The notes below the pieces were generated by a model. It made no database searches. It saw nothing but the letters and a program-made list of their open reading frames with translations, and was not told where the DNA came from. 24,010 nt of DNA from positions 1 to 24,010 of the IMG/VR virus record IMGVR_UViG_3300018063_000043; one strand, 5' to 3'. This document shows positions 751-5,075 of this stretch, in pieces. Position numbers and translations under genes: made by a program. Numbering within the stretch: the stretch's first letter is position 1; each line of letters opens with the position of its first letter. The DNA is from a virus.

Positions 751-752
751 AG

Positions 753-821
753 TGGAACCGGCGTGATTTGAACACGCATTGGGCAAATAAGTTGCCTGTC
801 CTGCCATTGGACGACGGTCCC
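753..821 (-). tRNA. tRNA-like gene with irregular anticodon arm
   Basis: Reading leftward, the acceptor GGGACCG pairs with CGGTTCC (one G-U) followed by discriminator A. The D-stem is GTCC/GGAC with a 7-base loop containing GG. The T-arm is GCGTG-TTCAAAT-CACGC. The anticodon arm is only 15 bases (GGCAACTTATTTGCC). It folds either as a 5-bp stem with a 5-base loop, or as a 4-bp stem with the 7-base loop ACTTATT, which lacks T33. The total is 69 bases with no encoded CCA. The anticodon cannot be assigned (TTA or TAT are the literal options). It may be a degenerate tRNA or a minimal form. Confidence 0.65.
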
Positions 822-2653: not shown

Positions 2654-2689
2654 GATCATCAGTTTCGGTGAGGAACCCCTAGCATACGT

Positions 2690-3135
2690 CTGCTCTGGTG
2701 TCTGCCAGGTAGTGCTACGGGATCTTGGTACCGTCGTCCCCACGGCCCCACCGCTTCACGTCACTGTGCAGTTCTCAGTGTGCGTGTGCTGATCTAGGAC
2801 TTACGATCACAGCCTCCCGACTGTGCTGGCCTACCGCGTCTTGATGATGGTGGTTGGTCCGGCCCCAGGGGTGGTGACTGTCGGGGGACGTAGCCACGCT
2901 CGCCGGGGCCGGACTGAAACCCAAGGTACAGACGACCTGTGGAGAGGTCAAGCCAAGTCGTCCAACATCCTGTATCTACGGGTATGTCTGATCCTCTGAG
3001 GTAGGGCTTTCGATCTTGGTCTGGGGGCGCTACACTTGCCAAGCCTCGCAGCCATGCGCCCTCGGCAGGATGCTGGTTAGGCAGGGGAGCTGATCTTCCG
3101 GGATGTTGCGTCAGCTCCCCTTCAACATCAAGATC
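2690..3135 (-). ncRNA. Candidate large structured non-coding RNA upstream of tRNA array
   Basis: The 666-base gap 2654-3319 has no convincing protein gene but many long complementary segments. They are CACG.CACTG/CAGTG..CGTG (2757-2786), a perfect 10-bp stem 2857-2866 with 2905-2914, nested stems GACGAC/GTCGTC (2931-2936 with 2957-2962) and TACAG/CTGTA (2927-2931 with 2970-2974, sharing base 2931), a crossing pair CTTGG/CCAAG (3015-3019, 3039-3043) with GGGCGC/GCGCCC (3025-3030, 3056-3061), and a pseudoknot at 3084-3129. Loop geometry of that pseudoknot favours the leftward strand, the strand of the adjacent tRNAs. Large ornate RNAs such as GOLLD and ROOL occur in phages near tRNAs; I see no sequence match I could name. 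The boundaries are approximate. Confidence 0.5.
3084..3129 (-). other. H-type pseudoknot within candidate RNA
   Basis: GGGGAGCTGA (3084-3093) pairs perfectly with TCAGCTCCCC (3111-3120). GATGTTG (3102-3108), inside its loop, pairs perfectly with CAACATC (3123-3129) just outside. Read leftward, the order is a 7-bp stem and a 10-bp stem with connecting loops of 2, 2 and 8 bases, the classic H-type arrangement. Read rightward, a 2-base loop would have to span the shallow groove of the 10-bp stem, which is not feasible. Confidence 0.6.
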
Positions 3136-3181
3136 ATGACTACTCGACAACGCTTGTCCGCAGAAGTTCCCAAGATTGGGG

Positions 3182-3209
3182 TTGCATTATGGCCGAGTGG
3201 TTATATACA
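3182..3209 (+). promoter_or_regulatory. Putative sigma70-like promoter for the helicase operon
   Basis: TTGCAT (3182-3187) and TATACA (3204-3209) are separated by 16 bases, an acceptable -35/-10 pair facing the helicase gene. The -10 overlaps a small dyad TACA-TTG-TGTA, a possible operator. Transcription would leave a leader of roughly 100 bases containing a perfect 7-bp hairpin, AACCTGC/GCAGGTT (3263-3269 with 3288-3294). The assignment rests on consensus resemblance only. Confidence 0.4.
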
Positions 3210-3319
3210 TTGTGTACAGCACCCCACAACAGAAGTCTGGCGCTAGAGATTCGCACAGAACGAACCTGCTGGCCTGAATCTCCTACGGCAGGTTGGCCTA
3301 GGCTTCTGGTGGGCACAGA

Positions 3320-4600
3320 GTGAGCAACATCAACCCCGAACGGGCTCTCATCAGTGCCGTACTCCGCACACAGAAACACCAGCCTCTCCTAGAAGAGATG
3401 ATCTCCCCGGACTACTTCGACGGGTACGTAGACGAGGCTGAGTGGTTGTTCCGCTACATCGACAGACGCAAACGAGCACCTAGTCGCGCACTGTTCAAGG
3501 CAGAGTTCCCTGATTTTCGTCTGCTAGCCGTTGACGACGTCGAACACTACTGTGCCGAAGTACGTAAGCGTCACAGCGCTGTTCTTCTCACCGAGACTCT
3601 GTCGAACGCCGCTGAGATGATCCACGACGGTGAGGTAGAGAAGGCTCTCGACATCATCCAGCGAGGAACAGTCAAAACGTACTCAACTATACGTTTACAT
3701 CACGACACAGACATAATTGACAACTGGCAACCCCTGTACCAGGATGTCCAAGAGCGCAAAGAAAAGTATGATACCGATGGGTTTGCCGGAATCCCTACCG
3801 GATTCGAGTCAGTCGACGAACGGACCGGGGGATTGCAGGGTGGCCAGCTAGGTGTCCTCGCCGCAAGACTAGGAGAGGGTAAATCGTGGTCGCTCATGCG
3901 AATGGCCGTAACCGCACTCATGTGCGGAAAGGTAGTCCAGTTCAACGCATTAGAAATGCACCGACAGGAAGTCTCCAAGAGAGTTCATGCTTTCCTCTCT
4001 TCCTCGATAGGGCGGAACATATTCAGCAACACCAACCTTGCCCAAGGCAAGGAAATAGACCTTGTGGAGTACAACAAGTTCCTACGGACACTGAGGAAGG
4101 AACTCAATTCATCTGGACGACTACATGTGGCCGACAGTTCTCATGGCCAGATATCTACGATGGACATCGAGAGTCAGATAACAAGAAATCAGCCTGACAT
4201 AGTTTTTATCGACTACATCACTCTCATGAAGATGAGAGGTGAGGGTGACTGGTCGTCCATCGCCCGTCTCACCAACGAGCTCAAGCAGCTAGCGTCCCAG
4301 TACCACGTACCGATCATGGTTGCAGCACAGCTCAATCGCAACGCGGCCGGGGGCCAAGAGCCTGCTGGCCCAGAGGATCTGGCCAGATCGGACTCAATTG
4401 GCCAGGATGCTGATATAGTGCTGAGCCAACGTCTTATGTCTAGCCGTGCCCTGAAATGTAAGTGTGTGAAAAACAGGCACGGGGTAGGGAACTTCACATA
4501 CTATTGCGTATTTGACCCGAGTCACGGAGTTCTTCAGGAGATCAATAGGGATACGTTTGACGATATACGTAGCGAAGATCAAGTAAACAATACCAAGTGA
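3320..4600 (+). CDS. dnaB: Replicative DNA helicase, DnaB family
   Basis: This is a 426-residue protein with GTG start at 3320 and GGTGG upstream. The N-terminal domain (about 1-110) matches the helical DnaB primase-interaction domain, beginning NPERALISAVL. The RecA-like domain has GIPTGFESVDERTGGLQGGQ (158-177), Walker A ARLGEGKS (182-189), ALEMHRQE (210-217), Walker B DIVFIDYI (293-300) and the sensor AAQLNRN with Q337. DnaB-type hexamers unwind DNA at the phage fork. The protein is slightly shorter than host DnaB, typical of phage versions. It heads the rightward operon with a primase two genes downstream, consistent with a self-encoded replisome. Confidence 0.93.
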   Translation: MSNINPERALISAVLRTQKHQPLLEEMISPDYFDGYVDEAEWLFRYIDRRKRAPSRALFKAEFPDFRLLAVDDVEHYCAEVRKRHSAVLLTETLSNAAEMIHDGEVEKALDIIQRGTVKTYSTIRLHHDTDIIDNWQPLYQDVQERKEKYDTDGFAGIPTGFESVDERTGGLQGGQLGVLAARLGEGKSWSLMRMAVTALMCGKVVQFNALEMHRQEVSKRVHAFLSSSIGRNIFSNTNLAQGKEIDLVEYNKFLRTLRKELNSSGRLHVADSSHGQISTMDIESQITRNQPDIVFIDYITLMKMRGEGDWSSIARLTNELKQLASQYHVPIMVAAQLNRNAAGGQEPAGPEDLARSDSIGQDADIVLSQRLMSSRALKCKCVKNRHGVGNFTYYCVFDPSHGVLQEINRDTFDDIRSEDQVNNTK

Positions 4601-4607
4601 GGTAGAC

Positions 4608-5075
4608 ATGACAATCTTAGGTGTGGTCGGTAGTACCGAGTTAACAGAAGACGAGCGGCAAGTAGTAATAGACTATGTGTCTGAGTTCCTCGACAATAAT
4701 AAAGAAGTTACCGAGATCCTGCACTTGCACTCCACAGGTGTCGAGGAGACCGTGGTAAATATTGCGAGCGAACGAGGTCTGCCCAACGAGTCCATCCCGA
4801 TCTACCACTACACATGGAATGGTGGCCAAAGCACGGGTGTGTTAGAAGGCGGATTCAAGGACGCAAATATAAAATTAATCGACCGCTGCGACAGACTTCT
4901 GGTCATGACCACGGCACGAGATAAATCAGGTGGTCCGTTGTGGGCTGCTAAGAGAGCAAGGAAGTTACAGAAGCCAGTTATACAGAAAACCTTTGTCTAT
5001 ACTCCTCCACGACCTCCGGTAGAAGTGATTGACAGTGCTCAAGTACCAGCGGTTGGCAAAGGAAGTGCTAAGTGA
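4608..5075 (+). CDS. SLOG/DUF2493-like Rossmann-fold protein
   Basis: This is a 155-residue protein, ATG at 4608 with GAGG six bases upstream, seven bases after the helicase stop. The N-terminus MTILGVVGSTELTEDE is a glycine-rich Rossmann start. HSTGVEETVVNIASERGL (40-57), Y.W (67-69) and ANIKLIDRCDRLLVM (86-100) follow the layout of SLOG-superfamily proteins (YspA/DUF2493, DprA/LOG-like), which bind nucleotide-like ligands. The C-terminus is proline rich. SLOG proteins are frequent in phage replication regions with unproven roles; nucleotide metabolism or sensing is plausible. The superfamily is likely, the function open. Its 3' end overlaps the primase start by about 47 bases. Confidence 0.6.
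   Translation: MTILGVVGSTELTEDERQVVIDYVSEFLDNNKEVTEILHLHSTGVEETVVNIASERGLPNESIPIYHYTWNGGQSTGVLEGGFKDANIKLIDRCDRLLVMTTARDKSGGPLWAAKRARKLQKPVIQKTFVYTPPRPPVEVIDSAQVPAVGKGSAK

Follow-up and report, generated by a model that had tools for sequence, protein, structure and literature searches.

A non-coding gap between divergent tRNA and helicase genes

The window, by which we mean the whole 24,010-nt stretch of DNA analysed, is a 24-kb viral contig with an actinophage-like genome. tRNA gene prediction placed an array on its minus strand (752-2653) that begins, reading leftward, with tRNA-Lys (2578-2653), while the plus strand carries a DnaB-like replicative helicase gene (3320-4600; PHROG 19, E 1.8e-59) with a primase gene next after it. 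Separating tRNA-Lys from the helicase gene is a gap of 666 nt (2654-3319), which a sequence-only reading had described as adjoining the tRNA array and as holding no convincing gene. Both descriptions hold: the gap lies directly upstream of tRNA-Lys, a location as for the phage RNA GOLLD, and every ORF of at least 40 amino acids within it is broken in the alignment to the homologous gap of a related phage (L002) by indels of non-multiple-of-three length. A coding explanation was ruled out by these frame-breaking gaps.

The nearest named relatives of the helicase are found in Gordonia Bendigovirus phages and Brevibacterium phage Cantare (~40-44% identity). From IMG/VR we identified a single close relative, L002 (helicase 93% identical, gap ~73%), and a more distant one, L004 (helicase 52% identical), to which L003 and L005 are identical across the helicase and gap region; a further phage, L015, has a 41%-identical helicase. 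Comparative evidence for the gap rests on one clear homologue, L002. No meaningful match was returned by blastn searches of the window gap against phages and plasmids or of the L002 and L004 gaps against phages, and scans of genome contigs for gap homologues gave no useful match. Scanning IMG/VR for exact patterns taken from four conserved blocks recovered only the contig of L002 again or unrelated contigs, and covariance models were negative on the new contigs from these scans.

The abundance of long stems proposed for the gap is marginal in the window and far above chance in its homologue. Perfect stems of the window include one of 10 bp (2857-2866/2905-2914), one of 11 bp (3083-3093/3111-3121) and two of 8 bp (2963-2970/3101-3108 and 2839-2846/3126-3133). 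Two stems of at least 9 bp were observed against 0.46 expected, a number reached by 10 of 100 shuffles, and the folding energy of the whole gap is likewise marginal (z -0.65 on minus, -1.72 on plus). In L002, nine stems were found against 0.82 expected, with none of 100 shuffles reaching that number. The two gaps can be aligned along their length except for ~430 nt exclusive to L002 (by blastn, window 2955-3005 faces L002 4222-4650), and in every sub-region the RNAalifold consensus of the pair is more stable than almost all column-shuffled alignments (z on the better strand -2.6 to -4.6). Among 20 coding controls put through the same consensus-fold test, 19 fell between -1.9 and +1.8 and one at -4.0; the latter corresponds to window ~4320-4520 (plus strand), in the 3' part of the helicase gene, compared with L002, and may represent an RNA element within coding sequence or chance.

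The sequence-only reading had made its RNA dependent on compensatory changes in homologues, and several helices carry them relative to L002. When the substituted letters were shuffled, 13 of 3000 trials produced a helix matching the compensatory changes of the best one, and 14 of 3000 produced two helices that each had three or more. Conversely, the long-range crossing stems proposed within 2690-3135 are not conserved: L002 is entirely different at the place of 2963-2970/3101-3108, and 2839-2846/3126-3133 does not re-form there. The best-supported crossing pair (3246-3294) lies outside that interval and fits the plus strand. A GC-rich spacer with functionless stems would account for the closeness of the window's own stems and folding energy to shuffles, but is very improbable given the stem excess in L002, the consensus-fold scores in every sub-region and the compensatory helices. 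Judged from sequence comparison, the gap is a real, non-coding, conserved and structured region without a known family.

A predicted pseudoknotted leader on the helicase side

On the plus strand, a promoter-like site (TTGCAT-N18-TACATT; 3182-3211) falls at a 22-nt block identical in L002; the sequence GAGTGGTTATATACATTGTGTA, identical in the two phages and surrounded by diverged sequence, offers the pattern TTGCAW-N18-TACATT. At the equivalent position L004 has TTGCGC-N17-TACTAT, the promoter-like pattern having been composed after both the window/L002 and the L004 sites had been seen. Downstream, consensus folding and compensatory changes point to a 5' leader of the helicase gene (3220-3319, plus strand), whose consensus fold scores z -3.72 on plus against -0.95 on minus and whose wobble pairs all speak for plus. 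Its outer stem (3230-3237/3301-3308), which shows a U-G to C-G change, encloses two crossing helices, S1 (3246-3252/3276-3282; three double changes) and S2 (3263-3271/3286-3294; five double changes). The eight double compensatory changes of S1 and S2 together were reached in 9 of 5000 shuffles, with an alignment hand-adjusted at two small gaps. From covariation with L002, S1 and S2 are predicted to be an H-type pseudoknot directly before the helicase start.

Both the leader and the promoter-like block lie outside 2690-3135 and on the strand opposite to the RNA originally proposed, which had been taken to read leftward through the gap as one molecule. A single continuous RNA of this kind, running into the tRNAs as a new ornate class with the habit of GOLLD and ROOL, would suit the position against the tRNA array, the stem-rich gap of L002, and a conserved tRNA-side domain with a variable distal part. 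We consider it unlikely, however, since the fold of 3220-3319 is conserved on plus and not on minus, a promoter-like block lies between the two parts, and the long-range crossing stems are not conserved. What stands of the proposal is the left part, which modestly favours the minus strand; the right 100 nt are better read as a rightward helicase leader, and a single RNA across the gap is improbable.

A comparable arrangement is known from gene 32 of phage T4, whose mRNA leader contains a pseudoknot that serves the encoded replication protein as an operator for repressing its own translation (PMC535899). As in T4, the pseudoknot lies in the 5' leader, upstream of the start codon of a replication gene, and the conserved pseudoknot that marks operators of the gene 32 type was found in S1 and S2. 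Unlike gene 32, the downstream gene encodes a helicase and not a single-stranded DNA-binding protein (SSB), and regulation, known for T4, is predicted here; the helicase pseudoknot is also larger, is enclosed by an outer stem and has no UUAAA repeats noted. Transcription rightward from the promoter-like site at 3182-3211 would yield a leader of ~100 nt, in which the pseudoknot probably restrains translation of the helicase as long as no protein or condition unfolds it. With the outer stem located just upstream of the start region, helicase synthesis could be adjusted by opening and closing of the fold.

The divergent slot is also long and non-coding in relatives. The region before the L004 helicase (4803-4966) comprises the promoter-like site, an apparent pseudoknotted leader that folds well (z -3.76 on plus), and a terminator hairpin followed by seven T's, 22 nt before the helicase gene. 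This different leader at the equivalent place, with its intrinsic terminator, suggests attenuation. By blastn and a covariance model (R1), no homology was detected between the L004 and window gaps; position alone is shared. A plus-strand terminator so close to the helicase, together with the significant plus-strand folds of 2976-3180 and 3180-3319, might indicate that the whole gap is transcribed rightward, either as a long helicase leader or as an RNA ending before the helicase. Such a reading is improbable: with conservation starting ~10 nt from tRNA-Lys it would need a promoter in or beyond the tRNA-Lys gene, and wobble pairs of the left part favour minus.

Upstream regions of the Bendigovirus helicase resemble the window in having a divergent slot, which there separates an AAA-ATPase block from the helicase. 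They differ in lacking tRNAs in this stretch, and neither sequence nor model comparison showed a convincing resemblance to the RNAs of the window. By eye, a covarying hairpin (GATAGT-TGCGCG-ACTATC / GAAGGT-TGCGCG-ACCTTC) precedes the Bendigovirus helicase start. Also identified in the equivalent region of distant relatives were tRNA-like minihelices (L021 2789-2842; L020 ~400-445, minus), consisting of an acceptor-like stem and a T-arm without an anticodon arm. L019 carries two copies (~4010-4060 and 4190-4235) of a foldable repeat of ~47 nt, CTGTTAGTTG..TTTGACCCTAGCCACG..GCACTAACAG. In L017, an 82-nt segment (3766-3847, minus) matches both ends of tmRNA above the cut-off (64.7 bits) and leaves no space for the mRNA-like part; it is possibly a phage tmRNA reduced to its tRNA-like domain.

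The tRNA-side part and the array beyond it

From consensus folds and wobble pairs, the remainder of the gap (2654-3180, minus strand), whose right, upstream end we infer, is a candidate large structured RNA or leader reading into tRNA-Lys. Consensus folds score better on minus than on plus for both 2660-2960 (z -4.59 vs -3.31) and 2976-3180 (z -3.52 vs -2.54), by an energy test that slightly misjudged a true tRNA-Leu. Wobble pairs of the left part (2654-2960) favour minus over plus by 4 to 1, and the stem that closes the tRNA-side domain is neutral; single-sequence folding energy gave no strand decision. The leftward strand is thus modestly favoured for the left part. A search for a leftward promoter recognised none.

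Beside tRNA-Lys lies a near-invariant three-way junction (2660-2757, minus; z -3.98) with a closing stem (2666-2673/2746-2753) and a hairpin arm (2676-2684/2713-2721), which is 95% identical to L002 and folds alike in both phages. Further upstream, and likewise on minus, a hairpin at 2808-2825 pairs CACAGC with ACTGTG in the window and CATGAT with ATCATG in L002, its helix (2808-2813/2820-2825) showing three double compensatory changes and one wobble explicable on the minus strand only. It is followed by a domain (2827-2955, minus) that is closed by 2827-2835/2946-2955 and holds a long stem (2856-2867/2904-2915) with one double change and wobble pairs conserved on minus. An 11-bp hairpin, GGGGAGCTGA/TCAGCTCCCC (3083-3121, minus), has a stem invariant in L002. 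A possible pairing of the loop with the flank (3104-3108/3123-3127) shows one double change at a place where the alignment is uncertain. The ~430 extra nt of L002 also sit upstream of the three-way junction.

Because conservation of the gap begins ~10 nt from tRNA-Lys, the simplest reading is leftward co-transcription followed by RNase P release. The invariant block could nevertheless be DNA control sequence, and possibly contains a promoter for the tRNAs, in which case the large fold would be cut off from the tRNA transcript. More broadly, the gap might be mainly DNA, a replication origin or the operators of divergent promoters, with its stems acting as DNA; helicase and primase adjoin it, a block of 100 bp is near-invariant, and the slot is long and non-coding in relatives as well. 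This is quite unlikely, as compensatory changes on G-U-tolerant helices, and likewise the conservation of an H-type pseudoknot, are what one expects of RNA, and iterons were searched for and none found. A stable tRNA-side RNA or a processed leader is favoured over pure DNA control sequence for the leftward element.

The array itself carries further conserved folds, so that the leftward transcript looks like a chain in which new structured RNAs are interspersed with tRNAs. Between tRNA-Ile and tRNA-Lys, an 84-nt three-way-junction RNA (1988-2071, minus; z about -6.8) has a stem and a hairpin, with the loop GGAGA, that covary with L002 3073-3155. Its covariance model also finds L015 1468-1547 (E 6e-5), a copy with the matching GGAGA loop and re-paired stems directly upstream of a leftward 340-aa ORF. 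This new element has no Rfam match and is presumed to lie on the same leftward transcript as the tRNAs. A second, statistically weak element (2080-2182; L002 3304-3392) consists of a conserved frame, TGCGTTGTTTCCTTTGGTCTTA...CCCAACGGAGG..GACGCACCCC, around a middle that is unrelated yet hairpin-forming in the two phages. Elsewhere in the array, orthologous tRNA genes (window 752-821, minus; L002 1332-1402) differ in predicted anticodon, UUA in the window, which would read the UAA stop, and UAA (Leu) in L002, with C at position 33; the window gene is possibly a suppressor or a degenerate tRNA.

Proposed divergent control and ornate phage RNAs

We favour, at a probability of roughly 55%, a divergent control region between the leftward tRNA array and the rightward helicase-primase operon, with a structured RNA on each side. 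Because the right part folds on plus and the left part better on minus, there are probably two separate RNAs, a large leftward one and the rightward pseudoknotted leader. The leftward transcript would be ~500 nt long (~940 nt in L002), comprise several domains ending in the near-invariant three-way junction, and read directly into tRNA-Lys, most likely with release by RNase P at 2653/2654. Such a molecule would count as an ornate tRNA-side phage RNA or leader, conserved in its 3' domain and variable towards 5'. Transcription, the strand of the left part, RNase P release and regulation are what we infer in this model from the sequences.

GOLLD is a large, stem-rich, phage-borne RNA beside tRNAs with a conserved 3' part and a variable 5' part, and ROOL an ornate phage-borne RNA near tRNA islands, with pseudoknots; both form RNA cages of unknown purpose, and ROOL can reach the abundance of 16S rRNA (PMC12286853). 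Membership in either family, one option raised by the sequence-only reading, found no support: with E values up to 10 allowed, the GOLLD covariance model (RF02032), which describes the conserved 3' region, matched nothing in the window, L002 or L004, and scanning the gap against Rfam gave no match to ROOL (RF03087). A ROOL family search of genomes also returned no match, with no positive control scored in that search. Rfam scans at the gathering threshold and at E up to 10 yielded only tRNAs, tRNA shadows and noise. The leftward RNA has in common with GOLLD that it is phage-borne, stem-rich, tRNA-side, and conserved at 3' and variable at 5', while being smaller and without a model match; with ROOL it shares a phage-borne location near tRNAs, again without a model match. 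By analogy, its mode of action may be that of the tRNA-side ornate phage RNAs, without membership in GOLLD or ROOL. Tentatively, the leftward RNA may form a new class of its own, large and ornate, with no sequence relationship to GOLLD and ROOL but with their habit of preceding a tRNA array; its transcript would then include several more new structured RNAs (1988-2071, 2080-2182).

Should an independent RNA with the GOLLD and ROOL habit be confirmed, association with tRNA arrays would look general, and the leftward RNA would offer a smaller test object than either family. The pseudoknotted helicase leader, if true, would mean RNA-level control of replication-gene expression in this phage group.
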